From contig JAMXDE010000012.1 of the NCBI GenBank assembly GCA_026770025.1, positions 1,302,001-1,366,000 of the forward strand: DNA of 64,000 nucleotides. The letters run 5' to 3'. Numbering within the stretch: the stretch's first letter is position 1; every line of letters begins with the position of its first letter. The translations under genes and the position numbers were made by a program. The DNA is from Craspedostauros australis (Eukaryota; Bacillariophyta; Bacillariophyceae; Mastogloiales; Achnanthaceae). A model generated the notes under the pieces. That model ran no database searches and was not told the DNA's origin. It worked only from the letters and a program-made list of their open reading frames with translations. Shown one piece after another: positions 1-27,083 of this stretch.

Positions 1-3000
1 TCAATGCTTTGATGATACAAATGGCCATTGTAGCTTCCCACTCGCACCTTCTTTGCTTCTGGGCATCGTCGATGCCCACCACATCTTCCTTTGCTTTCTT
101 CTCAAGAGCCATCGCTTTGTATGTCAGGTTACAATTGTCATCCATAGTCCCTGTTTCGCGATAGTGCTCTTCCATTGCCTCAACTTCAGCCTCTGCCATG
201 TCCATTGCTCCCTACATCCTCCAAGATCTCTTCCAACCTTTCAACAAAGGCAGATCCTACCAGAAATGGTTCTTCAATGCTGACTTGAAAGTCAGATACT
301 TCATTGCAATGGCAGTGACATCAATGTAGCCAAACTTACAACAGCGAATATATGATGGTCATGGTGGCGCCATGTCTCACGGATCGATGGGCAACGCTTC
401 GATGCCAGGCTATAGCAGTTATGCCAATCAATCGAACGATGGCCTGGTAAGCCCGATGAAGTTGTAGAACTCTGTGGAGTCACTATACTCTCAAATCAAA
501 GACCTGAGTTGAGATTCAATGAGGGACAGACTATTACCGAACACGGTATCAACCCGATGGGAGAAATTCTTGTTTTGGCGCGAAATCTTCCGACTTGATT
601 GACCACCAAATCTTTTTCTCCTCCTTCCTCTCCTCCATTCACGAATCCATCATGACTCAAACCTGACCGACCTGACTCACAACCCATCTGGGAACTATAT
701 GCTCTTCAGATCCTCCTTACTACAACATACCTCGATTCCTCCATGCTGATGACCACCACACTACCACCGTGGTCTCAAAATGCGTATCCAACTTGCTTCA
801 ACCCAAGCAATGGAATCCGAGGGTCAGCTTCAGCCACAGCCACTACTTCATGACCGTCACCACTAGGTGTCATGACCTACACTGCAGTGTAACTACATGT
901 ACGGAGAGCAAAGCACTGTAATGATTGTCTACTCTGTTGCACTGAATCAAGTACATCAGTGCAGGGTCTCGCCAAGTTGTGTGGCATCGTTTCTTCACCC
1001 TACTAACACCAATAAGCTAACTCATAATAACAGACAAGGATTAGCTACAAAGCACTCTACTACTCATCGTTACAGTTACAACTCTTCAACCAGTACACCT
1101 CTCTTGAACTGCATCACACGGCTATCCCAAAGCCAGCAGATTCACGAGACATCCTCCACCGATTCGCGCCGTCTACGCCCGAATCGTAACTACCTGAAAG
1201 ATATTGCTTGATGATGGAAGATGCTTGAGCTGAGGTACCAACCCCTTCGCACACTTATTGGCATGGTGTCGAGGATGCAGTGTGCTACAGCACACATGAG
1301 AAGGTGCTGCTGTGCAGCAAGATGCTCAAGAACGACAAGGATGATGGCAATCAAGGCAGCCTGGTGCTGGCAATGATACTGGAGGGTGGACGTCATGATG
1401 GTCGGGGAAGATATGATCCGCTGGAGTTCATCAGATGATAAATGCAGAGTTACACTAGGTGCATGTAAAGAAAGAGTTGAACTGCAACAGAGAGTTGCGA
1501 TGCAACGGGTGGCAACGAATAATCAACTTGCAGTAGAGCACATTGGATCAATCTGGTGTGAGCACAAAGTTTTGCTCCGATGCAGCCGTTGAGAACGAAT
1601 TTTGGACTACCACGACTCGTCAGAGAGATTATGAAATTATGAACGGTCTCCGAGGAGCGTTCATATTCGCGGACAATGAGTTCATAATTATTTCGATTGA
1701 CGTTATGTCGACGTTGACCCCCAATTCAACGAGGAGCCGAAAGGTATCTTGTGCCCTAAATGGAGCGATATGATTGGCCGAGAGGCCCAGATTATGAAAT
1801 TATGACCCTTACAACCACCTCCATTAGTGCACTGAAGCCATTCACAGTTACCAAAACAATTTCTGTGCGGATTGAGGCAAAGCCAGACACGATTCGTCGC
1901 GGAATTGTGAATGGGAGAAATTGCATGTCGGATTGAATCGAGAAGTCGACGACCATGTAGACCGGCAGGGTCCTCAGGTGTGATAGATAGTAGAGATGGA
2001 GAGGACTTGGCGGAGGCGACAATAACGCCGGTCGCGTAGTCGGAGAAGCAATAGCTCGAGAGAGAGTGTAAAGAGCAGACGTGTGAGGAACAGCAGTCGT
2101 TGTCTATCTATCCATCTATCTACTCTATGCGCGAGTATATGCCTGTGCTGATCTATTGGATGTTGGTAATGACGATGCGGGCAAAGAAGAATGGCAATAT
2201 CATCAACATGAACATCAACATCAACGCCGACTGTTACATGGAAAGTGCTTGAGCTGCGCGACTGTCATCAAGAGTAGAGTAGAGCAAACGCAGGCAAGCC
2301 ATATGGGAAGGTAGAGGCTGTGAATCTTGGATCGACTAAGCCGTCCGCATCTTGCTTTGCTATCAGCAGCCTGGTCTGAGTTGCAGTGCATTCGTGGCAA
2401 ATCAGAGCCCAGGTTGGGTCTGCTGCTGGACTATCGATGGCCGACAGCAGGGTGACAATACGGTACGGAGTGACCGTCGGTGTGCCGAGGGCGGCAAGCA
2501 CCGAGCGGGTTAGATCCTAGGGACCAAGGGTCAAGCCCGGAGAAGGTTAAATGCACACGAGCTGTCGAAGCCAGCCGAAGGCAGATAGCCACTAGCACGA
2601 AGTGATTGAAAGGCAGCAAGGGACAACAAAGCAACACCTCTGACTCAACTGCAGGAGACGAGCGGGATGCAAGCAGCGATGCCAACGATCGCCAACCTCA
2701 GATTACAGAACGTCTGATGCGATGCTAGATGACAACTTCGTCTCGGTCCAATTTTCGTCGATGTCGGCTGATGATCAGAAGCAAGAACGCAGTCAGATCC
2801 AAGCAATTGTGGCAGCCATTGACCCAATACGATATGACGTCGTGAACATGGCGGACGCGTGCTTGTGCGAATCGAGGAAAGAGAGGCTCAACAAGCAGCA
2901 TACTGCAACAGCCAGAGAGTGTGACGACGTGCAATGATCAATGAGATGACATCATCTTCACACAGGTGTTTCGCTCAGGCGATTGGGCTTTTGCTCCTCC

Positions 3001-3689
3001 ACAACGAAGAGGATCGACAGAGCGACATACGTAAGAAACCTATGCAATGAAGGCTCGTCACTCGCCATGCAGCATGGAATCACAGATAACGGTAGAATCT
3101 TTGCATGGAGCTCAGGGTATCCTAGATTTTCATTGCCAACGTTTTGTGCGCTCAGAAACGAGTCGGCTCTCGCCTAACGCTGCCTGGAATGTGCACTAAC
3201 ATCTTGATTTCTCTACGAGTACGACTATACGGCATCGTTCCTCGTCAATACAGAATGCGGCGGTGTACTTGAGCAAACCTACTCACTTAAGTTTCCCAAA
3301 CGATACGCTTGCGGACGAGTGCCTGCCTCCAATCTTGTGCGGCCTTGGTCGTTGTTTTGGATGCATTGCACGTAGGTGTGGTCGTCATCGCGTGCAGAGT
3401 GATCCTGTTTCCCAATTCCGGATCGTCCAACGCTCTCAATTCCCCGTACTCCGCACTTCTCTATTTCACAAGCGGGCACATACTGATCTGGTGACAGACA
3501 ACAGCGCAGAGCACTCTACTCGTACGAGTGGAGCATTCCAAGCAAACAGTCGAAGCTAACTCAATTCATATGACAGTGCATAGAGGTCTGTGTAGAATTC
3601 ATATTATACTATGAGTATATGCAAAAGTACAGCCAAATGTTGTTCATTCCATTCATACAATTCATTCTTGGCCACGGTCTTCGTGTTCA
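1..3689. other. Gene-poor stretch, no confident gene
   Basis: No long open frame and no recognisable domain on either strand. Two patches read like decayed coding sequence. One at about 332-467 on the + strand gives a Gly/Ser/Met-rich peptide ending at a stop near 467 but has a stop just upstream. One at about 2620-2937 on the + strand gives hydrophilic protein-like sequence only if the frame changes near 2720. A short phrase (gattatgaaattatga) recurs at 1629 and 1792. None of this is enough to call a gene. Confidence 0.5.
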
Positions 3690-4604
3690 TTACACGTTGT
3701 AGAGTTCAAAGTTCTTGATGTCCATAGCAAACGCATTATCACCAACTTCGTGGAAGTTCATGGCGTCGCCAAAGCATGCCCATGTCTTTGCCTTTTCGAT
3801 GTCGCATTCCACGACATCAAGCTGCAATTTGGGAATGCAGTCCGTGCCATTGGCTGGTGACTGCGCCATGGTGTTGTTCTGAGAGCTGAAGACTTGTTGT
3901 GAAGCCGTTGACGGTTGCAACAGCTGTGCAGCTCTTCCTGCTGGCGAAGTGGAGTCTTGCAAAGACTGTGCTCTTCCCGCCACGGTTTGTGTCGATTGAC
4001 TTCCTTCATCGGATGCGTGGTTGTGATCCGAAACTATCCTGGCAAGGCTTGTCTGTGCGGAAGCTCCTGGGATGATGTCCTGGGCCTGGGAGAACGTGGG
4101 GGCTGATTGGGTCTCCGGGGGCGGAATGCTGCGAACAGCCTCGCTTCGGCTGTCCACGCTCTCACCGGAAAACCCACTGAGTTGAATTGCAGACGAACGG
4201 ATTTGGGCCAGCTGCGCTTCTGTGAAAGCCTGCTGCATTTCCCGTCGGCGCTTGACGCGAAGCTGCGTGCTGGACTTGTACTTTGAAGACAGAGCGTCAC
4301 GGATCATGCAGCCGACCTTGGTCCTGGCTGCGCTTTCGTTCATCTCGTACCACCGACCGTCGTGGAACTTGACGAAAGGCGCGGGGCCGATATTGGACAC
4401 CTTCACCATCTCGATGATGTCGGTGACGATGTCCGTCTTTTGCTGCTTGGATGCGGACAGGTAGGCATTGCGGTACATTTCGATGACGCAAGTCAGGCGC
4501 TTGTTGCCAGTGGCGGAGATGCACCGCTTGCCTTTGCCAATCAGGATTGTGTGCGGATATGGAGTGTAGGTCGTTGGCAGGACTCTTGTAGTGTTGAGCA
4601 TCAT
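3690..4604 (-). CDS. DUF6824-domain protein, 304 aa
   Basis: Residues about 17-120 match the DUF6824 pattern known mainly from diatoms: a start like HTILIGKGK, then GNKR, a helical stretch ending in YRNAYLSASKQQK, the segment FVKFHDGRWYEM, and the closing ARTKVGCMIRDAL. The canonical GRGxxxNxHPGN loop is degenerate here (GKGKRCISATGNK). The rest (about 130-304) is Ser/Gln/Thr-rich and low in complexity, ending in a short acidic segment (KLQLDVVECDIEKAK). Two Met codons in tandem start the frame after an ACC context, and no other upstream start is plausible. The domain has no proven biochemical role; regulatory or DNA-binding proposals are inference. It lies 0.9 kb outside the left end of the large transposon. 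A second, better conserved member of the family is at 43081-46239. Confidence 0.8.
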   Translation of the reverse strand: MMLNTTRVLPTTYTPYPHTILIGKGKRCISATGNKRLTCVIEMYRNAYLSASKQQKTDIVTDIIEMVKVSNIGPAPFVKFHDGRWYEMNESAARTKVGCMIRDALSSKYKSSTQLRVKRRREMQQAFTEAQLAQIRSSAIQLSGFSGESVDSRSEAVRSIPPPETQSAPTFSQAQDIIPGASAQTSLARIVSDHNHASDEGSQSTQTVAGRAQSLQDSTSPAGRAAQLLQPSTASQQVFSSQNNTMAQSPANGTDCIPKLQLDVVECDIEKAKTWACFGDAMNFHEVGDNAFAMDIKNFELYNV

Positions 4605-5514
4605 GGTGGCTGTTGTAGTTGGTATTTGCTGTTTGCTGTTTGCTCTTGCTCTTGTGCGTGTGCGTTGCCGTTTGGATACCGTTGTTGGTTGCTGTTACTA
4701 GTGGCGGGGTGGGTGGGGTTGCAGGATGGTTGCTTCGTGAAGACTGAGATTGAAGATTATGAGCGTTGGGATATTGTGAGTTGATCAGGGCTGACATGAG
4801 ACGGGAAAAGATGACTGCGTCTCTGTTGTTGTCGTTTCTACTGCTGGTGATGTTGCTGCTTGTACTGTCGGATCGTATCAATTGTGTGTCTGTACTTGTC
4901 TGTACTTGCACTGTGGTTTCTGTTAGCTGATTGACTACTTGCACAGGTTTGCTGCCCGAGCGTCGTAATCGCAAACAGGGTGCTGGGCTCGTACGAACAC
5001 ACGCACGAACAAATGTACCACCACACGTACGAACAAAGGTACGAACACACGTACAAGCACGTGGATGTATTGGTATGAAGTGGTTCCAGCACGCTTCGAG
5101 TACGAGTATGACACAGAGACGCAATTGGTCGCCTCCCCACCCTTTCGCCGGGCGCGAGTTTGGATACGGTGTGTGTACGACTTTGTGTGCGATACGCTGA
5201 GTCTTCAAGGGTGGGTCTGGAGCAACGCAGATGTGCAGACGAACCAATCTCCATTGTTCCGCATGTTGATGCAAGTTTGTGGTTCCAACGAGAGGCGGAT
5301 CCAGCCAGAGCTCCACTTAAGCGTTTGTTGCGCCATGTTGGAAACGATATTTCCGTCGAACGCAAGAAATGTCAACTTGATTTATTGAGTCTGCATTCGG
5401 CCACAACAGATGTGTTCCGTGATCTTCGTTGAAGAACCCGTCGACAAGTACAAATATCAACCAGATATGGTTACTTTGGTCGTAGTACTTAGTGGAGTAT
5501 TGGTACGATTCCAA
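4605..5514. other. Intergenic, with degenerate ACGTACGAACA repeats
   Basis: No supported gene. Between about 4988 and 5064 the sequence is a loose microsatellite built from cgtacgaacac-type words, and 5090-5110 adds cgagtacgagta. Open frames on the minus strand at 4297-5316 and 4838-5365 overlap the DUF6824 gene out of frame or run through this repeat and look accidental. The last three bases (5512-5514, CAA) form the left target-site duplication of the 10.3-kb element. Confidence 0.45.
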
Positions 5515-5541
5515 GGGGGGGAAGGGAAAACGGCGTTTTTT
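5515..5541 (+). repeat. Left terminal inverted repeat
   Basis: Seven G, then AAGGGAAAACGGCG and six T. It pairs with 15753-15779 in inverted orientation with a single mismatch at base 3. The flanking CAA is at 5512-5514. Confidence 0.75.
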
Positions 5542-5919
5542 GCGAATTGCGACGAAGGAAAACGAAAGTCGAAAAGGGATGCGGGCCACCAAATGGCGAA
5601 ACATTCTTGCGTATTTTCAAAAACAACTTGTGGCTTTTTTGCTCATTATCATGTTGTGTACGAACTGCATCTTGTTGTTTTTTGGCTTTTTTCATTCTGG
5701 TCCACGGATCCTTCGCCTCTTCATGCCATTGTACACATTCGACAGCTACAGAGCCAGCATGTTCCCCTCTCTTCGAATGGGGGGTGCGGATGTTGTTGCG
5801 ACTCTCTTGCCAGTTGACTTGTTGCATTCCAACAGCAGGATTCATCTAGGTACGACAAGCAAACGTTGTACATTCTGACTCCACTATTTATGGTATTCTC
5901 GTTTGCCTTGCTGAGGCGG

Positions 5920-8900
5920 TTAACTTGCATCACCACGGCTCTGTCGTGCAGCCCTTCCACGGGTCCTCATCCCAGTAGTAGTCGGCTTTCTTCGTGCTTT
6001 CTCTTTGTCATTATGCTGGTGCTGTGATTGTTGGTCTCCTATTGCTTGTTCTGCCATTGTGGGATTATTCGTGGCTGCTTCCGCTGTTGTCGTTGGTGCT
6101 GTTGCGACCTGCGGTGGCTGTTGGCTACTTCCTTCTGCTGTCTCTCCTCTTGCATCATCTTTTCGGACCGATTCAGTTGATGCCAAAGTTGCACTTGGCG
6201 ATGGCATCTGGACTCCACCTGTTTCGGCTCCTCTTGTTGACACCAGTGATGGCGGTGATGGCAAGATCACCACCTCTGTTTGGGCATCTGTTCGTGTTGT
6301 ATGCTGCTTACCGCCTGCCTGGGCTGGTAGGATCCGTTGAGGTGATCCCACTACAGCAATCACCTCTTCTGGTGCCCGTCCTCCTCCACTGTCCAAGACT
6401 TCCGAAATTCTGGCTGCTGGTGATCGTGGTGGTGGCATTGTCTGCATCTCCGTTTGGGAATCTGTTCCTGTTGTTTGCTGCTCACCGCCTGCCTGGGCTG
6501 GTAGGATCCGTTGAGGCGATCCCACTACAGCAATCACCTCTTCTGGTGCCCGTCCTCCTCCACTGTCCAAGACTTCCAAACTTCTGGCTGCTGGTGATCG
6601 TGGTGGTGGCATTGTCTGCATCTCCGTTCGTGTTCTGTGGTGGGCATTGCCTGCCTGGGCTGGTAGGATCCGTTGGGGTGATCCTGCTGTTGCCATCTCG
6701 TCTGGCCATGCCCGTCCTCCTCCACTGTCCAAGACTTCCGAACGTCTGGCTGCTGGTGATTGTGGTGGTGGCATTGTCTGTGTCTCCGTTCGGGCATCTG
6801 TTCGTGTTGTTTGCTGTGCACCGCCTGCCTGGGCTGGTAGGATCCGTTCGAGCGATGGGTGAATGCGACTGCTCTGGCTTCTTTCGTCCATAGCAGAGCG
6901 ACGGTATGTGTACTGGTCTGCGCTGACTCTCACATCTGCTGCTGCTGGATCTTTACCACCTGATCTGCTTGCCAAGTGGCCAGCAGCATCAACCAATGCC
7001 GCATCAAGGGAGATATCCTCATGCTCCCACCATCTGTTGGCATTTTGGGAGACGTTCACATTGATGTTGGGGCCACCTGCTGGGGCCATTTCGATGGCAA
7101 GGCGGGGCTTCTTTCTTGGTCCACTCACTTCATTGTTCTCTGCCAACATTCTGGGTCTCTGTTGCAAGGCGTCTTCCCGTGCCCGGATTATGCGCTTTTC
7201 CTCCACCTTGAGAGCCAGCTCAGCTTCCATCATCTCAAGTGCTACCCGCTTGATTTCAATGCGGTCTCGTATTATGTCGGTACTGTCCGTAAATACCGAC
7301 ATGGTGTCGTCAGTGGCAGTCCGGGTTGCTGGCTGATGACTGATTGCAGAAACCGTGGGCGTGGCTTGTTGGCCATGCAGCCTTGGCTGTGTTGCTGATG
7401 GTAGTTGTCCGGTGTTGTTGCTTGCAAGGCTTTGTGCTGCTGGGATGTGGCTGTGGCCTCCTGGCTTGGTGGTGGGTGTGGGTATTGCAGGTGTTGTGCT
7501 GTAGCCAGCAGCATTTCCTGTGGTGTCCACTGTCTTGCTCACCGTGCTCGTCATTGTGTTGTTGATATTGTGGGTAGTGATGTCAGTGGTGCAACTTTGT
7601 GTGTTAGTGACTTCACCACGGACACCCGGATGGCTTCCATCATCTGCAAAGCCGAGACCATGGCATACAGAAAAGTGCCGGGTCACACCCACGTTGGTTG
7701 CTTCCTTCAAACGTACCGTTATTGTGAGGATGTTGTGAGTGGCGCCATCATTGTCCTTCACAGCATGACGTAGCCAGACCACTCCTCCTAATCTTCGGCA
7801 TGGTGTGTCACAGAAGATGGTGTCAATAGGAAATGGCATGGGCACAAGCATTTCTGATCGGAATGACTCTGCAAAGTCTTCATTCCGAAACTGCTGCACA
7901 TGGGCAGCACGTTTCTGTCCTGCATCAGAGAATGGATGGCCCAACTTGTCGATTAGAATGTCCACGATGCTTCCATCTTGACCGAAAGCTGATGGTGGCT
8001 TGTACAGCAGCACCAGGAACATCCGAGGTACTCCGCCCACCTTCCGACTTTCAATGGTCACTGTTGCGTCATTCCTTGTAGTACATGCAGGCAGGTGGAA
8101 ATCCACCCCAACCATGCGATATCGTTCACCACGAGGTCTCCACACTTGAGTTGTGTGAAAGACCTCGATGGTGCGGCTCAGCTTCCGAAACTTGGCAACT
8201 CGTTGGGGCTCTGATAGCTCAAAAAAGGTGCCAAATCTTGCAGTGATGGGGTCCAGAGGGCGGCTTGAAGCTTGGTTTTGGACTGCTGTGTTGCCCATCC
8301 CAAGGTAGTCGATGTCATCCTCAGAATCGGTTGCTTCAACATCATCGGATGCATCGTCGTCTTCAGCCCATGCACTGTTGTTGCTCCCATCTGTGTCATT
8401 GGTTTGACTGGGGGTAGTGGTGCCATGTTTGTCGGATCTGTCATGTGTGCTTCTCCGTGTGATTCGTCTGCTCACAGCTGACCTGCTGTTGTTGATGGTG
8501 TTGGCGTTGTTCTGGTTGGCGGTGTTGGAGTTATGGTTGGAGGTTTCCAGCACAGAGTCATCAGCCGCAGGTTCATCAAGAGGACGGAGGTTGGCACCTA
8601 GCTTCTGGATTGAAACCTTGTGTGGTGTGCCATCCTCTGGATGAAACGACGAAGAGATGAAGGCCAAAGGTTGGTGTCATAGGAAAGAGATAAGAACACG
8701 GATGAGAAGTAACCTGGTTGAAAGCAGAGATGCTCAGGATGAAAAGTTGGCAATGTCACTGGGCATGTGATACTCACGATGAAACAAAGACTTCTTCACC
8801 AGTGCGCGTTTGAATTCGCGTAGCGTCCGAACAAACTTCTTTGCATCGTACTTGACCAAGAAAGGGTGATGAAGACGCAGAGGCGTTGACTCCCAGTGCC

Positions 8901-8985
8901 ATTTTGTTGGCTCGGCCAAGAACGCCTTGATCAGCTCCTTAGCATCGGGGCCATTTTTGTAGAAACGGACTTCTGAGCCAACCAT
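5920..8985 (-). CDS. Accessory protein of the Harbinger-like element, two exons, 974 aa
   Basis: Exon 1 is 8985-8778 (start MVGSEVRF), exon 2 is 8636-5920, and the 141-bp intron has a GTGAGT donor and a pyrimidine-rich CCAG acceptor. I infer the intron because the exon 2 frame is closed upstream by a stop and has no ATG near its start, while exon 1 is clearly protein-like. The first 70 residues (WHWESTPLRLHHP, KKFVRTLREFKRAL) suggest a small helical, possibly DNA-binding domain; that is inference. Then follow an acidic Asn/Thr-rich linker, a folded-looking segment at roughly residues 165-390 (GERYRMVGVDFHLPAC, RMFLVLLYKPPS), and a tail with four copies of a 54-60 residue repeat beginning RILPAQAG. 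No known family recognised. Its place opposite the transposase fits the second protein of a Harbinger element. Confidence 0.6.
6305..6880 (-). repeat. Fourfold in-frame coding repeat, about 165-174 bp per unit
   Basis: The phrase gcctgcctgggctgg recurs at about 6312, 6487, 6651 and 6825. Translated on the minus strand, each unit starts RILPAQAGG, continues through QTMPPPxSPAAR and SEVLDSGGGRA, and ends VVGSPQ or similar. Unit length is a multiple of three, so the frame stays open. The first unit in protein order reads AWPDEMATAG where later units read APEEVIAVVG. Confidence 0.8.
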
Positions 8986-8993
8986 TGTTGTGT

Positions 8994-9990
8994 GTGTGCA
9001 AATGTGCTGATGTGCAAGTGTCTTGATGTGCGAGTGCAAGGATGTGGTGATGTCCAAATGTGAGAGTGTCTTGATGTGCAAGTGTGAGGATGTGCTGATG
9101 TACAAATGTGAGAGTGTCTTGATGTGCAAGTGCAAGGATGTGGTGATGCCTGAGTGTGAGAGTCCGTTGATGTGGGAATGTGCAAATGTGCAAGGATGTG
9201 CTGATGTGGTGATGTCCAAATGTGAGAGTGTCTTGATGTGCGAGTGCGAGGATGTGCTGATGTTCGAATGTGAGAGTGTCTTGATGTGCGAGTGCGAGGA
9301 TGTGCTGATGTCCAAATGTGAGAGTCTGTTTTTGTGCGAGTGCAAGGATGTGCTGATGTGCTGATATTCGAATGTGAGAGTGTCTTGATGTGCGAGTGCG
9401 AGGATGTGCTGATGTTCGAATGTGAGAGTGTCTTGATGTGCGAGTGCGAGGATGTGCTGATGTTCGAATGTGAGAGTGTCTTGATGTGCGAGTGCGAGGA
9501 TGTGCTGATGTTCGAATGTGAGAGTCTGTTTTTGCACGAGTGCAAGGATGTGCTGATGTGCTGATGTGCAAATGTGCTGATATGGGAGTGTCTTGATGTG
9601 TGAGTGCGAGGAAGTGCTGATGTCCAAATGTGAGAGTCCGTTGATGTGCGAATGTGCTGATGTGCTGATGTCCAAATGTGAGAGCGTCTTGATGTGCGGG
9701 TGCGAGTGCGGGTGCGCCTTTGGTGCAAGGATGTCCTGATGTGGTGATGTCCGAATGTGAGAGTGTCTTGATGTGCCAGTGTGAGGACGTGCTGATGTCC
9801 AAATGTGAGAGTCTGTTTTTGTGCGAGTTCGAGGATGTGCTGATGTGCTGATGTGCTGATGTGCTGATGTGAGAGTGTCTTGGTGTGCAAGTGCAAGGAT
9901 GTGCTGATGTCCAAATGTGAGAGTGTCTTGATGTGCGAGTGCAAGGATGTGCTGATGTTCGAATGTGTTGATGTTGGATTGTGTGGGTGA
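8994..9990. repeat. 48-bp minisatellite
   Basis: About 20 units of a 48-bp motif, with some shortened to 36 or fewer bases by loss of a gatgtgctgatgt-like segment. Key words are gagagtgtcttgatgtgcg, agtgcgaggatgtgctg and atgttcgaatgt. Because 48 is divisible by three and the motif has no stop in several frames, long artificial open frames run through it on both strands. It ends only a few bases upstream of the start codon of the accessory gene, so it occupies that gene's 5' region. Confidence 0.9.
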
Positions 9991-10234
9991 GTGTTGTGTT
10001 TTTTATGGCAGCAATGATTTGTTCGAGTGGGTTGTTTTGACATGTTGAGAGGCAATACCACTGCAAGCCTTGTTTGGTGACGCTGCTCTGTGGGTGTTTG
10101 GTTGCCTCTGTTCTTCCAGTGCGCTGAAACAAACCAGCACGGTCGTGCGCTCCATTGCGATGCAAATTCCTTCCTTCGTGGCCATGCGTACGTGCAGAAC
10201 CGGCGCAGTTCCATCGCAGCGACGCATTCCGCAT

Positions 10235-10445
10235 CAGTGGTCGTGGATGATTTCGAATGCTGCGAAAAGACCAAGCAGGGCCGGACAGTCCGTTGGCGCG
10301 GTCGAATACCACATGGTGAGACGAAACCGAATACATTGAAGTTTCGCATTCCGCGGAAGTATTCGCGTGTGACTTGGAAAGTCGCAAAAAGACCGAGCAG
10401 GATCGGACAGTCCGTTGGTTCGGTTGAATACGACCTAGTAGGAAT
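10235..10445. repeat. Diverged direct duplication, about 118-bp spacing
   Basis: Two copies share the pattern cgaaaagaccaagcagg (10261) or cgcaaaaagaccgagcagg (10383), followed by atcggacagtccgttgg or a near match and then cggtcgaatac or cggttgaatac. A third weak trace (tccggccaacgcag) is near 10870. No coding meaning is evident. Confidence 0.6.
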
Positions 10446-10989
10446 GGGCTCGGAACCACGTCGCAGTGTACAACCACACTAAATAGCGTCGCAGCGAACC
10501 CAAAACGCGACATGTTGGTCCCAAATGGCACTTTGAAAGACTTTGATAGCCCCAATAGTGTCACTCGCTGCACAATAATTGACAAGAATGGGTCTAAGTA
10601 ATGCTGTTCTTGGTCGAAATCGACACCAAGGCATAAAATAGTCTCAACATTACGTCAATTGGCGCAGAAAGGGGCTAACAAATGCCCAAATGGTGTTGCT
10701 CGAACCGTTCATCCTGAAACTGCCTGTTCAGAACTGCCACAACCAAAACATCATTCCTGGCACATCCGGACGCAGGGAGCAATCCGTTCAAAACTGCAGT
10801 GTATGTACAAACAGACCAACATGTTGGGCGAATGCGCCAAAGGCGACGCAGTCGAAACACTGTTTCGGTCCGGCCAACGCAGAAAAAATGGCACAAATGA
10901 GAACATGTTCCACGATTCAACGGCGAGATGGAAAAAACGGTGCGAATGTCCGAGGGAAACAGTAACAGACGAATTTCGCACAGGACGAA

Positions 10990-12970
10990 TAAATGTGACA
11001 AAGCGCTTCCGGTCTTCATCTGTGTGTATGCGTGCACCGGTCTTGTTCCTTCGTTTGGATTTAACCTGTCTGTTCTTACTGACATTGTGCATGTGACAAG
11101 TTTGCACGATCGACCCTGCGCGGCATGACTCCATACCCGGTTTGTTTCAGCAATACTGCACAGAAACATGTCAGACATGACATGAAGAACAACAAATCAT
11201 CCCACGTACAACATCACTCGCGCACCATCCGACATGATCCTTCTGCTGTTCGTCTGTTGCTGTGTGTGCTGTTCTTTTTCGTTTGGTTCGATTTAACCTG
11301 TCTGTGCTTGGTAACGTTGCACATGTGGCAAGTTCGCACGATCAACCCTGCGCGCCATGACGCCATACCCTGTTTGTTGCAACCGTACTAGACACGACAT
11401 GAAGAACACATCATCCCACGTACAACATCACTCGCGCACCATCCGACATGATCCTTCTGCTCTTCGTCTGTTTCTGTGTGTGCTGGTCTTTTTTGTTCGT
11501 TTCGATTGAACCTGTCTGTGCTTGGTGACGTTGCACATGTGGCAAGTTCGCACGATCAACCCTGCGCGCCATGACTCCATACCCTGTTTGTTGCAACCGT
11601 ACTAGACACGACATGAAGAACACATCATTGTGCATACAACATCACTTGCGCACCATCCGACATGATCCTTCTGCTGTTCGTCTGTTGCTGTGTGTGCTGT
11701 TCTTTTTCGTTTGGTTCGATTTAACCTGTCTGTGCTTGGTGACGTTGCACATGTGGCAAGTTCGCACGATCAACCCTGCGCGCCATGACTCCATACCCTG
11801 TTTGTTGCAACCGTACTAGACACGACATGAAGAACACATCATCCCACGTACAACATCACTCGCGCACCATCCGACATGATCCTTCTGCTCTTCGTCTGTT
11901 TCTGTGTGTGCTGGTCTTTTTCGTTCGTTTCGGTTGAACCTGTCTGTTCTTACCGACTTTGTGCATGTGACAAGTTTGCACAATCGACCCTGTGCTCGAT
12001 TACTACATACCCTGTTTGTTGCAACCGTACTAGACACGACATGAAGAACACATCATTGTGCATACAACATCACTTGCGCACCATCCGACATGGTCCTCCT
12101 TCTCTTTGTCTGTTTCTGTGTGTGCTGGTCTTTTTCGTTCGTTTCGATTTAGCCTATCTCTTCTTACTGACGTTGTGCATGTGACAAGTTTGCACGATTG
12201 ACCCTCTGTGTGCCATGACGCCATACCCGGTTTGTTTCAGGAACACTGCACAGAGACATGCCAGAAACGACGTGCGGAACAACAAATTATCCCACGTACA
12301 ACATCACTCATGCACCATCCGACACGGTCCTCCTGCTCTTGGTCTGTTTCTGTGTGTGCCGGTAATTTTTGTTCGTCTCGATTGAACCGGTCTGTTCTTG
12401 CCGACGTTGCACATGTGACAAGTTTGCACGATCGACCCTCTGTGTGCCATGAGTCCACACCCGGTTTGTTTCAGCAATACTGCACAGAGACATGCCAGAA
12501 ACGACGTGTGGAACAACAAATTATCCCACATACAACATCACCCACACATCATCCGACACGATCCTCCTGCTCTTCGTCTGTGTGTATGCGTGCGCCGGTC
12601 TTTTTTGTTCGTTTCGATTGAATCTGTCTGTTCTTGCCGACGTTGCACATGTGGCAAGTTCGCACGATCGACCCTGTGTGCCATGACGCCATGGCGGGTT
12701 TGTTTCACCAACACTGCACAGAGACATGCCAGAAACGACGTGCGGAACAACAAATCATCCCACATACAACGTCGATCGCGCACCATCCGCCACGTCCCTC
12801 CTTCTCTTTGTCTGTTTCTGTGTGTGCTGGGTCTTTTTGTTTGTTTTGATTTAGCCTATCTGTCCGTACTTGTTCATGTTGCACATGTTACTACTTTGTA
12901 TGGTTGGCCCTGTGCGCCATGACTCCATACCCGGTTTGTTGGGACAATACTGCACAGACATGAGGCCCAC
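10990..12970. repeat. Tandem array, 214-bp units then about 234-bp units
   Basis: The marker caccatccgacatgatcc or its variants recurs with starts at about 11221, 11435, 11649, 11863, 12077, 12311, 12544 and 12779. The first four spacings are exactly 214 bp and the later ones are about 233-235 bp. The longer units carry an extra cactgcacagagacatgcc segment that the short ones have replaced with ccgtactagacacgac. Diverged partial units lie at both edges. Open frames within the array repeat with it and show no domain. Confidence 0.88.
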
Positions 12971-13249
12971 GTACAGAATTGCGCGGGCAGAATCAAACAC
13001 AGCACATCCAACCCTCCTCTGTGTCCGTGAATGCACTGCGTTTTTTGCCAGTCCGAACCAACACAAATGGCGAATGCCAACAAGCCGCACAACATGCTAA
13101 ATTTTGCATGTTCTTGTGTGTTCAGAACAAATCAACAATAGCAGCACTTGCCCTGCATGTTTTCCTCTCTCTGTTGCTGAATTTCATAGTTCACTGCTTG
13201 ATGTCACAATTTTGTCCTCCATCCTGTTGGTACATCAAGGCACATCAGA

Positions 13250-14295
13250 ATGGCATCAGAGACAACAGAGACAGCCATTGCATGCAAGGGAATGGAGCTT
13301 CTGGGACAAGCGTTTGAGCCTAGACTCCAGACTCCACCATCGTACGGCGTGCAAACATGTTTCCGAAGCAACTTCGGAACCCACACCAAAGTGGCAGCCA
13401 TGGCGTGGGACAGACTGAATGAGGAGGACTTACTGCCGTGGAATGCAACAATGGAGCACCTGCTGTGCGCTCTCATGTTTCTCAAACAATATTCGACATG
13501 GGGCGTGCTGGCAGGGCAAATGGGAAAGGATGTGAAAACTATACAGAAGTGGACCTGGATTATTCTTCGTGCGTTGGGTCTCCTCAGCCGTGAACTTGTA
13601 AGTGGCACAACTTTGGAACATCAACATCCAGACTGCAACATACACAATGCAATTGATGAGCAGCATGCCTTACGTCTCACATTCTCTTTATCTTCCAATG
13701 TTCACATGTGTTCATCCTATCCCAGATATGTTTTGAAGATCGGAAAATGGGATGTGCACCAGGAACTACAACAATGGCATCTGTAGATGGCACTGACTTC
13801 CCCATCATGGAGCCTGTTTTGTATGATCCAGGCTGGTATTCCCACAAATTTCAAGCTGCAGGGCTCCGATACGAAACTTGCGTTTCCATTGCAAAAGGGC
13901 ACCTTGTGTGGGTGGATGGACCATATCCTTGTGGGGAGTGGCCGGACATCAAAATTTATCGAGAGAAGCTCCTACATGAGTTGGATCCTTTCGAACAGGT
14001 CATTGCAGACCGTGGGTACAGAGGTGAGCGAAGCTGCTGCTTGGATCGCACTCGACGCAATGGTGTGATTCGTGCACGCCATGAAACCGTACACAAAAGG
14101 TTCAAGAACTGGAAGTGCCTGAAGCAAAAATGGCGGCACTTACTGGAGAAGCACCAGTATGCAATGTACTCGGTTGCCGCAATCACGCAGTTGGAACTGA
14201 AACATACAAATCCATTGTTTAACCTCACCGAAACAATGGGAGTGATCAGAGAGATGGATGATTGGTTGGATTCCCTGGTGGAACCGGAAGAATAA
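13250..14295 (+). CDS. PIF/Harbinger-like DDE transposase, two exons, 305 aa
   Basis: Exon 1 is 13250-13597 and exon 2 is 13726-14295; the 128-bp intron runs from GTAAGT to CCCAG and both exons meet in phase 0. Residues about 45-116 form a helix-turn-helix-like region (AMAWDRLNEEDLLPWN, TWGVLAGQMGKDVKTIQKW). The DDE core follows: first Asp in VDGTDFPIMEP (about 137), KFQAAGLRYE, GHLVWVDGPYPCGEWPD, second Asp in IADRGYRG (about 211), and Glu in RARHETVHKRFK (about 236). Known: this pattern belongs to the DDE_Tnp_4-type endonuclease that cuts and joins transposon ends. All three acidic residues are present and the frame is open, so it could be active. It is about 1.5 kb from the right terminal repeat of the element. 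Confidence 0.88.
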
Positions 14296-14388
14296 GCAAC
14301 ACTCACATGCAACAAAACAACGAACTTTAAATAGCAACAACAACCATCACTTTTCAATCTATTCGTCACCGGAACTGCTGGAAAGTTG

Positions 14389-14726
14389 ATGCAGTTGGCT
14401 GGACCAACAGACAAAGTATCCCAGGCCAAACCAAGGTGGACTGAAGGAGTGATCCTTGTCTGCAAAGGTAAGAATAAGGACAAGGACAAGGAAGAAGAGA
14501 AGAAACAGAGGCACGAAGCAGTTTGTTTGCAATCATGATTGTGTTGTTGACAAACACATGGGGGGACAAGAAGAAGCTGCTTGTACAACATAAGAACAAC
14601 AACTATGCAAATAGCCTGGTAGTTTTGGACTCCTGCATCCAACAAATCCGGCACATCATGCAACCATCAAGGTCCACGGAGATGGGGGCAGAGGCCGTTG
14701 TTACAGCTCTCAGCATCCTGAAGTAA
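14389..14726 (+). CDS. Possible small third gene of the element
   Basis: An ATG at 14389 opens a 49-codon frame (MQLAGPTDKVSQAKPRWTEG, then a Lys/Glu-rich stretch) ending at 14538. The KPRWTEG segment recalls the start of Myb/SANT-like or trihelix proteins that accompany Harbinger transposases. Just downstream another frame carries NTWGDKKKLLVQHKNNN and ends SILK at 14726. The two could be exons of one gene (a GTAAGA word lies at 14468) or a decayed gene. No splice pair of normal size joins them convincingly, so the call is weak. Confidence 0.3.
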
Positions 14727-15752
14727 GGCAGCACTCCATCAGAAGGAAGCAACTACATGTCAATCAACATCATCAAGGAAGCTCGGCAAGGAGCAGGCTG
14801 AGACGGCCTGATATGGACTGCACAGTTCGACCGTGGAGAAAGCACGGTCGAAACCCTGCCAGGTCATCAGAGCGCCGCAAACCCTTCCACTGGCAAACCA
14901 AAGTGACTCACGAGCTGTGACACGTGACATTACAACAATGGTCAGGCCTAAATCACCTCCTCCTTGAAGAATACCAGTGCGTCATCATGTTTCAGTGCAT
15001 GGACACCGATTGCCAAGCCTTTGCAGAGCTGCCTCGAAGATCTATGCTTACCCACCATGTGTAAGCTGGCTTTGCACCTAGCAGGAGCCAGGACGACTCT
15101 AGCAGAGGAGCTTCTTGCCATGACACATGGCAAGCCGTATATGGAGGCCACAGTTGGTCCAGAGCATGGAGCATGGCTGCACCGTTCACCATCTGCATCC
15201 AACATCCTCCAGCGTGACCACACGCCCGGCATGCCTCACACGAGTCACTGCAATGGCAGCTGGCACTGCCACGTGCGTCTCCCGCATGTATGTAATATAT
15301 GTACAGGCATATGTAATTGCATGCAACCACACGGCAAGGCAAGACCTGCCAACATGATCCATTCCCACTGAATGGTTCATGTGGAATGAATGCAGCAGTA
15401 CGAAAACACCGGTGGCACATAGTTTTGGAATACAGTCTATATGGTACAACAATAACAGAAAAATATCTGTACACAGCATGCATGGGGAGGAAGAGAGAAG
15501 CAACTTGCATTGTTCGTATGGTAGGCTGGACCACTATTAGTTGTTACAGGGTGGTGGTAAAGTGTGGATGCAAGTTATGGACGAAGTTGCAATGGAGGAT
15601 GGGCTTGTTCTCCCAAACCCAAAGCAAGTCACAAATACACGAGGAAAGCAACAGCAGAACCTGTGAAATGGCTGATTCCAACGAAGACCAAGAAAATGTG
15701 GAAAATAGCAACAATGGACCCACTTTCTATTCTTTCTGAGTCGCATTTACAA
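14727..15752. other. Right interior of the element, no clear gene
   Basis: About 1 kb between the small open frames and the right terminal repeat. Open frames on both strands overlap (for example 14992-15534 minus and 14964-15371 plus) and show no domain. The region is likely noncoding terminal sequence of the transposon. Confidence 0.45.
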
Positions 15753-15779
15753 AAAAAACGCCGTTTTCCCTTCCCCTCC
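15753..15779 (-). repeat. Right terminal inverted repeat
   Basis: Inverted copy of 5515-5541 with one mismatch. It is followed on the + strand by CAA at 15780-15782, matching the left flank. Confidence 0.75.
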
Positions 15780-17292
15780 CAAGAGGATCGCTCACAGTCG
15801 TCTTGATTCGAGGTTTGACTGGTGACAAATTCATGCAGGCTCGACATGTTTGAACAAAGCACAACCGTGATTCACAGAAGCAGAATAAATGATACTGTGG
15901 ACGACGAACACCGGATACTGCTGGCTCCCTGACCTCTCTCCACTCTTCCACGCTTGCGCCAACATACTTGCGAGAGTCCACTTGGTCGATACAGCTCTGG
16001 AATCCCAGACTGGCTGTTGGCTGCGAGAGTTGCATGGAGTTTTGGATGATCTGTGTCACACATAACGATAAAGCCAGAGACGAATCACAATTGGGACATC
16101 ATCGCCGTCGATGTGTCTTCCCCAAAGTGCCTCGCTCCGTGCAGAGGCGCAGCAGCACAAAACTCTTCACCCTTTCCTCTCCAATCGACTTCAAGCAGAG
16201 CTGGTGGAGGCTGCACAGCCGTCGGAAGGAGTTGCTCATTTGACACGAGTGCTGTGCTTTCGACGCAGGCAGTATGGAACTGTGATACGAGTACGAGCAG
16301 AGCAGCGCAGGTCACCGATGGCACGGATAACAGGACATCAATCAAGGTTGCTCATGAGAGTTCTGCTCGAGATGTTCTGTCGCAAGCATGTTTGAACATC
16401 ACTGTGAGCTCTTGCGGTCTCTCTCTCTCTCTCTTGCTGGAGAGAGGAGCGCATTGCACTTGTGTCCGCAATACAGCTCAAGCGGGTTCATTGGATGCAG
16501 CGCAAGAGTCATGTCCCTCATTTTGTTCCCGCATCATCTGCTAGATACTGCGTCAAGATGAGTGAGCCTGCCCAGCGGCGCCGAGAACCCACAGAATAGA
16601 TTGTTCACAGTCAGCTATTGCATTGCCTAACGAGCAACATATCTTCAACAGAGGTGGCAGAACCGCCAATCTATCCTCTCGCTCTCTTGCTTTCTTTGGT
16701 TTATTGGTTTCATTGTTAGATCTCGCCACGCGGTATCGATGTCGAGCCTGTCGTCGCACAAGCCGACTTAAACGACTGATGTGTTGGCAGCGGCGTTAGT
16801 GCCATCCTGTTGTGATCCATTTGGGCGACGCTCTTGCTCACCTGGCTCCAGACCTTCGTTGTTCCTTCACAACAGCAATGACAAATAGAATACACACAAC
16901 TTGTAACGTGGCTGTCATCCACTGTGCTCCCATTTGGAGCGGAATGACAAGTTGCAATTGACCATGTGTGATGCCATCTCATGATCTGACTGTTCATGCC
17001 CAGCGTGCCTCCGATTCCTCTCTGTCGAGCTATGCGGCCGCATGAAGCAAGTTTGCTCCAGCCACTCAGCTCCAGCAGGTCAGCCAACTATAACAATAGG
17101 GTGAAATGGGCAAGTGCCATTGATTCAGCATATTCGTCCAATATTATAGAATTAGACGAACGCGTTTTCTCATTCTATTGCGAGGCTGCGTGCGTGTGTT
17201 TGTGTCTGGGGCAACAGGATTGCCGCATTGTGTGCCTCCGATAGAAGATATGGAGTACGCTGCTCAACTCACATTTGTCTCTGTCTATGACA
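15780..17292. other. No supported gene
   Basis: Open frames are short and conflicting (16053-16544 plus, 16716-17087 minus, 15727-16059 minus) and none shows a domain. A CT-rich run sits at about 16420-16436. The part next to 17293 may be the 3' flank of the PARP-family pseudogene. Confidence 0.4.
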
Positions 17293-18151
17293 TCACGTAC
17301 GGAGTAGAGAGGATGTGACAAAGTACTCTGGGTAGGCCTGGGCGTCGTGATGCACCACAAAGGTGGATGGATTGTCCATGTTGTCGACCGTGGAATCAAA
17401 GAGTTCCGTCTGTTGGTTAGGTTTGGTGTCAGGGATCAGGTGGTTGCTTGTTCCTTGGCAAAAGTCTCCAATAGCTGCGCGGCACATGAACATGCGTTGG
17501 ACGCTGTCGTCATCAGGGACGGAGTATGTACGATTGGCCGAGGCGGATAGATCGCTTGCAAAGTATACACCTTTGCCGTACTTTGTTCCGTTGCGCCCGG
17601 CAAATGATCGATTGAATCCCTGTCTCTCGATCTTGGCGGCGTGCTCCCTTGTCGTGCCATGAAAGAGCCATTTGTACTCCGCAGACTGCCTGTGGTTGTT
17701 CACAACGGTTTCAGGATGCTCTTCGAAGGCAACCTCCATCGTTTGCTTTTTGGCTGCATAGGTCTGCCATAGCACCAGGTTTTGAATGCGCTCAATTGAG
17801 GCGATGTCGATGCTTTGGCCTGAAGAGCTGCACGGAGCGTGTTGAACGAAGCTGACCACATCTTTCTATTCTTCGGAATGATGGCACAGTTGAAATCGTC
17901 CATGGTTGAAGCTCTGCTTGTCGTTGCTGAATCTCTCCCATGCAGGTGGTGTTTCCGATGAGACAGCCATTCCCTTCATGCCCTTGATGATATCGCCCAT
18001 CATATCGACGGTGGGGGCGCTGACTGCTGTAATCGGAAACCAACCGGAGGTGGCGCAGTTTTTGCAATGCCTGCGACAGTGTTTCGATTGGCGTGCAAAA
18101 GGCAGATGAAGTTGGTACAGCCTTGATTGTGCCTGCGCGCAATTTGAATGG
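17293..18151 (-). pseudogene. PARP-family gene, catalytic part (split by copia insertion)
   Basis: The frame at 17859-17293 encodes a mono-ADP-ribosyltransferase domain of the PARP14/PARP10 type: SIERIQNLVLWQTYAAKK, WLFHGT (NAD-binding His), GFNRSFAGRNGTKYGKGVYFA (Tyr of the triad), and the closing VVHHDAQAYPEYFVT. These enzymes move ADP-ribose from NAD+ to proteins or nucleic acids. Reading upstream in the same frame gives PPAWERFSNDKQSFNHGR and then SEE, a TAG stop, and KDVVSFVQ. The stop sits where related proteins usually have Tyr, so a nonsense change is likely. Further upstream the protein-like frame shifts near 18050. The copia element lies immediately upstream at 18152, between this part and the WWE-bearing 5' part. 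With an in-frame stop, a frame change and a 5.9-kb insertion, the gene is almost certainly dead. Confidence 0.8.
18146..18151. repeat. Target-site duplication of the copia element, left copy
   Basis: gaatgg at 18146-18151 is repeated at 24050-24055, directly outside the two LTRs. Copia insertions normally duplicate 5 bp; the sixth matching base may be chance. Confidence 0.8.
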
Positions 18152-18814
18152 TGTTGAAACAGGTCTCAATCCTGTTGCTCATGTAGACCGGGTGGGGCTA
18201 CAATTGGTTCACTAAGTTAGTTGTTCTGTTATCCCGGGTTTGTAGGTTGGTGATTCCTCTTTCTCTGCGATTTATGAGCTCGACTTGTCTGTCAAAAGTC
18301 AACTCATGTCAATCTCCAGTTGCCCTGCAAACTCGTGTAGTTCTGACTCCTATTGAGTCAGATCATTTCCTAATTCCTAACGATCCACCGCGATGTGAAT
18401 CCTCGACCTGCGCCAGTTTCCCGCAGTTCGTCGTGTTGTTGTCTTATTTGGTCTTGGTTGTGTCAGACAGAGATTCAGGAACTCGATTGCGTCAGTCTCT
18501 AATCCTGACGTCTTACCTAAGTGGTTCCTCTCATCCATATATATCTGGTCTTGCTCCTCTGCTGACGTTCATGCTCTGCTCCTCACGTTCCCGCTGACGT
18601 TAGATTCCTCTCGGCTCGTAGATTATTTGTTTCTGAAGATTCCGAGATTCTTTCGTCATATTCGAGGATTCTGCTGTAAATTTCCGTTTTCGGGTTTGGA
18701 ACATTTGATCGTGAGAAGGAGTTCTGGACAAACAAATATGTGTGAGCAGTCATTTGCGCAACTGTGACCCCTACCGGGTCATACACGAATCTGAATATTC
18801 GTCATGTTCCAACA
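18152..18814 (-). repeat. 3' LTR of the copia element
   Basis: 663 bp with TGTTG/CAACA ends. It is identical in the compared stretches to 23387-24049 at a constant offset of 5,235 bp. Confidence 0.95.
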
Positions 18815-18866
18815 CTCTCCCTGTTTGTGCAGAACCTCTCCTTTCATCTCAAAATGACGTCGATTG

Positions 18867-21800
18867 TCACTTCAACCCTCCTTGTCTGATGGATGGCACC
18901 AGCCTCTCATGAATGCTCTCCTTCACATTCTTGGTCATGGGATCCGCGAAGTTCATCTCGGATGGTGTGAACTTCATGGTCATCTCTCCTCCCTGTACCA
19001 TTTCCTTGATGAAGTGATATGCCACATCGATGTGCTTGGTGCGTAGTCCAACCTGCTGGTTCTTGGTCAAGAAGATTGCTCCAGTGTTGTCGCCATGTAG
19101 AGTGATCTGCGTGTTGGTTCCAGTCATCTCATCCAGCAGCATCTTGGCGAACTTGCATTCGGTTGCGCAGTTTGCCATCGACACGTACTCCGCCTCTGTG
19201 CTCGAGAGTGTCACCGATCGCTGTGTCTTGGACTGCCAGCTCACAAGACACCCTCCGACCGTCACGATGTTGCCTGAGACGCTGCGACGATGATCCTTGT
19301 TCGTTGCGTAATCCGAATCGCACCATGCTTCGATCTCCAGCCTGCGCGGCTTCCTGAGCTTGATGGCATAGCTGTCCTCCTTCGCAATCTCAGCCTTGAT
19401 GTATCCGATCAGTCTCGCCATCGCCTTCCAGTGTTCCTTGGTTGGATGCTCCAGATGTGATGCAAGTTCTCTGACAGCGTTGGCACACTCTGGTCCCACT
19501 TTCTTCATCATCCAGAGAAGCTTGCCAACAATGGATCGGTATCCAGCTCGATTGTCCACTTCATCATCTTCGGTCGCCTTCACCAGGGTAGTTGATGGGT
19601 ATCCTGGGGTCTCAAAGAGTCTAATGTTCGATTCGTAGTGCTGTTCGAATTCCTTGATCATCTGCTCCACGAAGTCGTCCATGGTGACCACCAGGCACTT
19701 GCCATCTGCATCAGTCATCCTCTTGTACCATACTCCCAGATGTTTGGTGAGCTCTCCAAGGTCCGTGATGTTGAACTTGCGTGCGATCTCTTCCTTGATC
19801 CATTCGACTGTGACTGGGTCTCCTCCGATAGCAGCATCGTCGACATACACGATCACCAGTGCTGTGACTTGCCCGCTCGACTTGTACACGAACAAGCATG
19901 GATCTGCCAGACTCTTGGTGAATCCAATGTCCACCAGTGCTGCTGTGAAAGTCTTCATCCATGCTCTGGGTGCTTGAACCGTTCCATACACCGCCTTCAG
20001 CAGTTTTGCAACATGCTTGTGACGATATTCCGGATCTGCCCTTCCGTCAAAGTCTCCGTCCACGAATCCTTCTGGGATCTCGATGTACACCTCTTCTTCA
20101 ATCTCTGCGTTCAGGAATGCTGCCTCCACATCCAGGGCTTTGATCACCCATCCAGTGTTGGCCAGGCACACCGCCAGCATTGTTCGAATTGTGGTATCAC
20201 TTGCGACCAGGGAGAATGACTCTGTGAAGTCCACTCCAGGGATCTGTTCGTATCCCTTCACCACCAGCCTCGCTTTGTACCGTGTTGACCCATCCTGTTC
20301 GGACTTCTTCACGAATATCCAGCGAGACTTGAGTGCAGTGCGTCCTCGTCCCATGCTGCCTCGATCAATGACTTGGAGACAGTCGCGCTTCTGGAAGTTG
20401 TGAACCTCCTTTTCAGCTGCTCCCTTCCACTTGTCACCATCTGGCCTGCTCAGAGCGTCCTTGAGCGTCTTTGGCAGCCCTGGATCAGAAGTAAGGGAAG
20501 CGTTAAAAACCATCAACACTCTCCCGGATCTGGTGTTTGGCCTTCCATCATTCCGGCCTTGCACCTCGTAGGATCTCCAGGTCTGTAGTTTCGCTCGCTC
20601 TCTCTCCATCTTGGATGACCCTCTCCCAGCTTGCGGAACTGCCAGACGAGTTGGATGTCTCTCACGTTGGTTCGCAGGTGTCACATGCCGTTCATTCGCC
20701 TGATGCACATCCACCATCTCGAAGTCATCCATGCCCTCATTTCCATCCGAATCAGAGACAAGCCCAGGATCCACAACGATTCCGTTGATATCGTCCCGGA
20801 CATGGTCGGTTGGGTCCGCCATCACACCGCTCTCATCGTCCGAAATGACATGAGGAAGTTCATCGATGCTGACCATCTTTGGAATCTTGGTGGTTGCCGC
20901 TCTCTCCCCAGTGGACGGAGTCATCATCAGTGGAACATCCGCGTCGACCACAGGCTTCTCATCTGGGACTGCGGCTGCGGTTGCTGCTGGTGTTGGATTG
21001 GATGCAGGCTCAGGTTGTGCAATGATCTCCACACCATCCACGACCCCTGCTCCATGCCACTCCATCCAGTTCAGGTCTCTGGACATCACCACCTTGTTGG
21101 TATCGACCTTCAGCATCCGGTAGGTATCGCCTGCATGGTTGTCAGCATAGCCCAGCATCACCGTTTTGAATGCTTTCGGTGTAAGCTTCGGCTTCTTGGC
21201 GCGATCCGTTACGTATCCGACGCGTCCCCATTCCATCAGATGCGGATAGAGCTTGGGATTCTGGCCGTAGAAGGTTTCATCTGGACTCTTGTCGTTGCCT
21301 GTCGTGACCGTCAGGTTATGGAGCCGGGTTGCCGTGTGGATTGCCTCCGCCCAAAGCCGTCCTTGTGCCTCATCAGTGAGATCAGCATCCAACATGAGCG
21401 CCAGTGCCGAATCTCGAATCGTCACGAATCCTCTCTCAACAACACCATTCATCATTGGTGTGTTGGGGGCGGTGTACTCCAGTTGGATTCCATGCTCGTC
21501 ACAGACCTTCTCCAGCTTCCCTTGGTTCTCACCAGCGTTGTCACACCGAATGGCCTCCACCTTCAGGTCTGCACCTTTGAGTTTGGTGAGTAGAGTCTCC
21601 ACCTGTCCTGCAAGCTGGCTCTTGTTTGTCAGGAAGTAACTCCACTTCTTCTTGGAAACCTCATCCACGATCAACAGCCAGTAGTTGCTTCCTTTGGCCG
21701 TCTTCTTGTATGGACCAGAGATGTCCAGGTATAGGCGTTGAGCGATGTGGGTAGCTTTCTCAAATGCCTTCTTCCTCACTCCCTTCGCCTTTGCTTTTGC

Positions 21801-23315: not shown

Positions 23316-23386
23316 CTTGTCGTTGTTCTTCAGCCCTGATGGCCCAACTTCGTGTGTCTGAGTGTCTCAAGACACGTTTTAAAACG

Positions 23387-24049
23387 TGTTGAAACAGGTC
23401 TCAATCCTGTTGCTCATGTAGACCGGGTGGGGCTACAATTGGTTCACTAAGTTAGTTGTTCTGTTATCCCGGGTTTGTAGGTTGGTGATTCCTCTTTCTC
23501 TGCGATTTATGAGCTCGACTTGTCTGTCAAAAGTCAACTCATGTCAATCTCCAGTTGCCCTGCAAACTCGTGTAGTTCTGACTCCTATTGAGTCAGATCA
23601 TTTCCTAATTCCTAACGATCCACCGCGATGTGAATCCTCGACCTGCGCCAGTTTCCCGCAGTTCGTCGTGTTGTTGTCTTATTTGGTCTTGGTTGTGTCA
23701 GACAGAGATTCAGGAACTCGATTGCGTCAGTCTCTAATCCTGACGTCTTACCTAAGTGGTTCCTCTCATCCATATATATCTGGTCTTGCTCCTCTGCTGA
23801 CGTTCATGCTCTGCTCCTCACGTTCCCGCTGACGTTAGATTCCTCTCGGCTCGTAGATTATTTGTTTCTGAAGATTCCGAGATTCTTTCGTCATATTCGA
23901 GGATTCTGCTGTAAATTTCCGTTTTCGGGTTTGGAACATTTGATCGTGAGAAGGAGTTCTGGACAAACAAATATGTGTGAGCAGTCATTTGCGCAACTGT
24001 GACCCCTACCGGGTCATACACGAATCTGAATATTCGTCATGTTCCAACA
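23387..24049 (-). repeat. 5' LTR of the copia element
   Basis: 663 bp, paired with 18152-18814. In the element's own orientation it lies upstream of gag and would hold the promoter. It is followed on the + strand by the second copy of the target duplication (24050-24055). Confidence 0.95.

Positions 24050-27037: not shown

Positions 27038-27083
<46 letters not shown>

Follow-up and report, generated by a model that had tools for sequence, protein, structure and literature searches.

The interval between 5512 and 15782 of the window (the whole stretch of 64,000 nucleotides analysed) probably corresponds to one DNA transposon with two genes, hosted by a eukaryote and belonging to the PHIS (IS5-like) superfamily. 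Within this established superfamily the element would be atypical and possibly represents a new subgroup. Its features are given below from left to right, with the basis of each assignment in brackets.

5512 to 5514, no strand: left CAA flank, putative target-site duplication (sequence)
5515 to 5541, plus strand: left terminal inverted repeat (TIR), 27 bp, with a weak match onward to about 5569 (inverted-repeat search, alignment)
5920 to 8636, minus strand: predicted exon 2 of the second gene (open frame 5920-8667, splice reading)
6274 to 6856, minus strand: coding tandem repeat of 174 bp (58 codons) within the second gene (tandem-repeat search, codon analysis)
7138 to 7305, minus strand: charged segment with a coiled-coil look by eye (second protein)
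7627 to 8268, minus strand: presumed globular part of the second protein, the model being too poor for a fold name (structure model)
8637 to 8777, minus strand: predicted intron of the second gene, 141 bp, GTGAGT...CAG (splice reading)
8778 to 8985, minus strand: predicted exon 1 of the second gene, with the ATG at 8985 (splice reading)
8995 to 9984, no strand: array S1, composed of 8-bp words, with periods of 16, 24, 48 and others above them (tandem-repeat search)
11039 to 12958, no strand: array S2, units about 214 or 234 bp apart (tandem-repeat search, alignment)
13250 to 13597, plus strand: predicted exon 1 of the transposase gene (splice reading)
13598 to 13725, plus strand: predicted intron of the transposase gene, 128 bp, GTAAGT...CAG (splice reading)
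13726 to 14295, plus strand: exon 2 of the transposase gene with the DDE_Tnp_4 domain (Pfam, splice reading)
15753 to 15779, minus strand: right TIR, 27 bp, with a weak match starting at about 15722 (inverted-repeat search, alignment)
15780 to 15782, no strand: right CAA flank, putative target-site duplication (sequence)

The two TIRs match as inverted copies at 26 of 27 positions (96%), and the element measures 10,265 bp between their outer edges (15779-5515+1). Weaker similarity reaches about 58 bp inward, with an alignment of 81% over 59 columns (E 3e-7). Within 3001-18000, exact inverted repeats reach 24 bp at most, a length equalled in 0 of 200 dinucleotide shuffles (maximum 22, mean 14.5). 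An 18-base TIR core has two matches in the window at up to 3 mismatches, both being the element ends, compared with a mean of 0.04 in shuffles, where none of 100 gave two. Among the 25 longest of the 87 inverted pairs in the window, the TIR pair is preceded by five with longer arms, which are CAA/CAG-type low-complexity sequences at 71-80%. A screen of pairs straddling the transposase (left arm within 1-13250, right arm within 14296-30000) places the TIR pair at a score of 24 and the runner-up at 14 among the best 29 pairs. The original prediction of 27-bp inverted ends spanning 10,265 bp is borne out by the inverted-repeat search and the shuffles, and its CAA on both sides is present in the sequence at 5512-5514 and 15780-15782. 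The left flank reads GATTCCAA up to the element and the right flank CAAGAGG from it, so that CAA abuts both ends; the identity is visible only from the full 27-bp edges, the 24 exact bases stopping inside the single mismatch. The sole match shared by the element and the flanking DNA is 35 bp at 83%. When the flanks are joined at a single CAA, stop-free stretches over the junction extend to at most 113 residues (170 and 123 residues in joins lacking one or two bases); no interrupted gene is shown at this site because the empty-site junction restores no long reading frame. RNA and tRNA searches gave no matches.

Directly to the left of the element is a minus-strand frame (3690-4604) with a DUF6824 domain (PF20710, 59.3 bits), which may point to a diatom as the host, and directly to the right is a minus-strand frame (17293-17859) with a PARP catalytic domain (84 bits). 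Farther along, a copia-type LTR retrotransposon occupies 18151-24049 with two 664-bp LTRs (18151-18814 and 23386-24049) having 0 mismatches, GAATG flanks on both sides, and a 1,482-codon frame with gag, integrase, and RVT_2 domains; this retrotransposon appears to have inserted very recently. A 54-bp tandem repeat (27208-27339, 2.4 copies, 87%) is located where frames of 292 and 249 codons are both open, on opposite strands.

The transposase is read from two plus-strand frames (13250-13786 and 13708-14295) that give a protein of 305 amino acids when joined via the predicted intron. The DDE_Tnp_4 family (PF13359, cut-off 24.8 bits) matches frame 13708-14295 with 31.3 bits and the spliced transposase with 29.4 bits, bearing out the DDE transposase that had been proposed inside the ends. 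A putative catalytic triad, assigned by eye, consists of D137, D211, and E236, separated by 73 and 24 residues; the D-E spacing of 24 residues is shorter than usual in such transposases, a point against the main reading. By this profile match to DDE_Tnp_4, the element is assigned to the PHIS superfamily of IS5-like transposons, which includes PIF/Harbinger, ISL2EU, Spy, and their relatives. The features shared with the superfamily are a transposase alignable over the DDE domain and terminal inverted repeats. Matches of exon 2 to phrog_4716 ("transposase", E 0.047), of the transposase to NF050157 (E 0.15), and of the transposase to the PDB (best E 0.11) are weak and have been set aside.

The second gene is placed on the opposite strand, head-to-head with the transposase gene, and its predicted spliced product has 974 residues. 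Its main frame comprises 915 codons, compared with a longest stop-free run of 257 in 200 mononucleotide shuffles of the element. The earlier reading of a 974-residue protein of no known family is reproduced with the 141-bp intron, and no family was matched in NCBIfam or in Pfam, Myb/SANT included (E limit of 1 for the 915-codon frame and of 10 for residues 1-404), a Pfam search that could miss divergent Myb/SANT members. The best PDB matches of the protein (E 1.3 to 434 Cro, and another at 1.8) are not significant, and a weak match of exon 1 to phrog_37155 (function unknown, E 0.026) has been set aside. Structure models built without relatives are poor, with mean pLDDT values of 41.4 for 7627-8268 and 67.0 for 8779-8985, and fold searches of these models against the PDB gave best E values of 0.17 and 3.0, respectively, neither of which names a fold. 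No fold is claimed for the protein because the models are poor and the PDB matches weak. Some stramenopile proteins may have similar motifs, a resemblance given no weight here. The codon usage of the second gene correlates with that of the transposase gene at 0.35 and with six other frames of the window at 0.17 to 0.63; because the former value lies within the latter range, codon usage says nothing for a common origin of both genes.

Two non-coding arrays, S1 and S2, totaling about 2.9 kb are located in the 4.3 kb that separates both start codons, and a third array (6274-6856) is coding. The original prediction of two kinds of tandem repeat amounting to about 3 kb agrees with the non-coding pair and falls short of the three arrays in all. 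Compared with one S2 unit, seven near-full units are 78-94% identical and one partial unit is 81% identical. The coding array consists of four units in frame, one copy being 4 codons shorter. The three closest unit pairs have dN of 0.08-0.19 and dS of 0.04-0.16, and the three pairs that include the divergent final unit have dN of 0.57-0.74 and dS of 0.58-0.71; this array keeps its frame, yet its repeat sequence gives no sign of purifying selection. Between S1 and S2 is a direct duplication of 90 bp (10223-10312 and 10345-10434, 77%), perhaps the remnant of an older array. The minus strand of the S1 region has no stop trinucleotide starting between 10004 and 8942, whichever frame is read, and lacks ATG between 10042 and 8986, directly upstream of the ATG of the second gene, whose own frame stays open throughout S1. 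S1 may serve as a leader without ATG or be translated as a repeat, or it may do neither.

Movement of such an element would proceed by cut and paste, with the transposase binding the inverted ends, excising the element, and inserting it at a 3-bp staggered site to leave CAA on both sides. From the gene content, the second protein would most likely do the work of a Myb-like partner, namely end binding and transposase import into the nucleus, a role that no domain match or structure model of the protein supports. The Myb-like protein of canonical Harbinger elements contacts both the transposase and the TIRs and aids nuclear entry of the former, and such partners diverge strongly in sequence (PMC9179366; this and the other papers are cited from excerpts), so the absent Pfam match of the second protein says little. 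Most autonomous elements of the PHIS groups have a second gene (PMC4482050, sections cited). The second gene is thus more simply explained as a partner than as captured cargo, and the cargo-bearing form suggested in the original prediction is not upheld. Both genes diverge from a common central region that may have been enlarged by tandem amplification, either through slippage or through interrupted gap repair after excision. Abortive gap repair appears the likeliest origin of S1 and S2; growth of tandem repeats by this route has been proposed for Medicago Harbinger elements in the excerpts of PMC2213677.

It is highly improbable that the ends are a chance inverted pair delimiting no single element. 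The CAA identity alone, a 3-base match at a single insertion, has a chance of about 1-in-64 and one copy is known, but the ends are equaled in 0 of 100 and 0 of 200 shuffles and bracket a transposase of the expected type. A composite, in which a smaller Harbinger-type element acquired DNA later and the arrays or the second gene derive from the host or another element, is unlikely. The element is about 2.5 times as long as autonomous PIF/Harbinger elements are on average (4,124 bp in the cited part of PMC4482050), the largest Medicago MtPH-A6-4 element has nested insertions (PMC2213677, excerpt), and the codon-usage correlation between the genes, only 0.35, could also be read this way. However, no second inverted-end pair with a duplication is conspicuous among the best 29 pairs straddling the transposase, and S1 and S2 have no relatives in the flanks.

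Two further alternatives concern the parts of the element. S1 would be coding rather than satellite DNA if it lengthened the second protein at its N terminus by a repeat-rich segment, in the protein's own frame and spliced from an upstream exon, which is quite unlikely. The minus strand described above is free of stops and ATG, whereas 500 dinucleotide shuffles of S1 contain a mean of 8.45 stops (minimum 1) and 10.1 ATG (minimum 2). The open stretch, however, has no in-frame ATG, and the biased vocabulary of S1, which lacks 13 of the 64 trinucleotides, accounts for part of the effect. Zero stops also survive random substitution in 36%, 15%, 1%, and 0.2% of 500 runs at 10, 20, 40, and 80 changes, respectively, and an ATG-free transcribed leader accounts equally for the absent ATG. 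That the second gene is true cargo, a captured host-derived gene with no role in transposition, is very unlikely. Its protein matches no family known for such partners, and Harbinger relatives that have added genes exist, with TET/JBP in rust fungi and SET in HarbingerS of Phytophthora (excerpts of PMC12730594), but the element has no other second gene where one is normal in these groups, and divergent partner proteins make the silence of Pfam uninformative (PMC9179366, excerpt). The reading as a single element with a transposase and a partner gene is retained as the most probable; the Harbinger-type transposase of the one element proposed originally stands on the ends, flanks, and PF13359 match.

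Within the superfamily, groups are defined by their target-site duplications, which in the cited sections of Han et al. 2015 (PMC4482050) are TWA for PIF/Harbinger, AT for ISL2EU, ANT for Pangu, CWG for NuwaI, TNA for NuwaII, and none for Spy. CAA is none of the duplications given there for the six groups, and its outer bases are not complementary, unlike theirs. PIF/Harbinger elements have TWA and a Myb/SANT second ORF, whereas here CAA occurs on both sides of one insertion and the second protein has no Pfam family, which divergent members could escape. CAA likewise differs from the ANT of Pangu, from the AT of ISL2EU, whose THAP domain and YqaJ exonuclease in the second ORF found no Pfam match here, and from the CWG or TNA of NuwaI and NuwaII, whose second ORF encodes Myb/SANT, for which no match was found. 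Spy elements have one gene and insert in AAATTT with no duplication, as against flanks of GATTCCAA and CAAGAGG and two genes. A newer lineage has a TA duplication, and Harbinger relatives give duplications of 0, 2, or 3 bp (excerpts of PMC12730594). A single insertion does not suffice to define a group, since the CAA identity could be due to chance or reflect an unusual target. The missing Myb/SANT domain is still weaker evidence for a new group than CAA because such domains are very divergent and the second ORF of Pangu is described without a known motif. The view that the element was atypical for Harbinger holds for CAA in place of TWA; size and internal tandem repeats have precedents in Medicago (PMC2213677, excerpt) and are not diagnostic. 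A new PHIS subgroup with an asymmetric CAA site, a large protein from a novel family, transcribed divergently and replacing the Myb partner, and a kilobase repeat free of stops and ATG serving as leader or coding extension is rather doubtful.

PHIS groups being distinguished by their target duplications, an asymmetric CAA subgroup, if true, would mean that this type of transposase is less constrained in its targets than is suggested by the six groups in the cited sections of PMC4482050. A partner protein without Myb/SANT, if true, would help in probing the function of the second gene in such transposons. Should additional copies have neither CAA targeting nor a Myb-less partner, the element would be one more large Harbinger-type element with tandem DNA.

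Relatives were sought in viral, phage, plasmid, and prokaryotic collections, results that say nothing about eukaryotes. Viral contigs yielded no relative with the spliced transposase, residues 1-404 of the second protein, two degenerate motif patterns, or the 24-base TIR; the pattern stretches from the two protein searches (one for the transposase and two for the second protein) failed a tblastn check. The two degenerate motif patterns had no match in prokaryotic genome contigs, transposase exon 2 (as protein) and 5515-8700 (as DNA) had none in plasmids, and part 7627-8268 of the second protein had none in phages. One viral contig (L001) matches the 18-base TIR core, sharing 20 bases with the ends and otherwise weak short matches; about one chance match to the core is expected, assuming that the viral collection comprises tens of billions of bases, and this match is taken as chance. 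No description of this element was recognised in the literature searched; Repbase lies outside that search, so the element is not claimed as undescribed.

Compared with known systems, the element resembles PIF/Harbinger in its DDE_Tnp_4 transposase, two genes, TIRs of <60 bp starting with G, and 3-bp duplication, and differs in CAA versus TWA, in having no Myb/SANT found, and in its 10,265 bp versus the 4,124-bp average (PMC4482050, sections cited). Pangu (Harbinger2 in Repbase), for which one heterokont species is reported, has similar TIRs of 11-40 bp starting with GG and a second ORF without a known motif, but an ANT duplication and a 3,487-bp average length (excerpts of PMC4482050 and PMC12730594). 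The absence of a known motif is stated in the Results of PMC4482050, whose Discussion counts Pangu among the Myb/SANT groups. The Merlin, Tetris, and Galileo elements are likewise DNA transposons with tandem arrays, but are non-Harbinger, with repeats inside the TIRs in Tetris and Galileo (excerpts of PMC8101967 and PMC4079207). The excerpt of PMC6431247, a paper on giant transposons, does not name Harbinger. Closer in type, MtPH-A6-4 of Medicago is a subfamily of Harbinger elements partly filled with tandem repeats and reaching large sizes, with 2-35 copies of a 60-bp repeat that at the extreme make up almost the whole region between the TIRs, and complete Medicago PIF/Harbinger elements range from 2,180 to 25,288 bp; the subfamily differs in its TAA/TTA duplication, single subterminal repeat, and plant host (PMC2213677, excerpt). 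Harbinger-like elements are recorded in the diatom Thalassiosira pseudonana (PMC2806351, excerpt), and the autonomous Harbinger of Ectocarpus, also a stramenopile, has two opposite-strand genes, arranged tail-to-tail with ANT or TNA duplications, in contrast to the head-to-head genes and CAA here (PMC12477816, excerpt).
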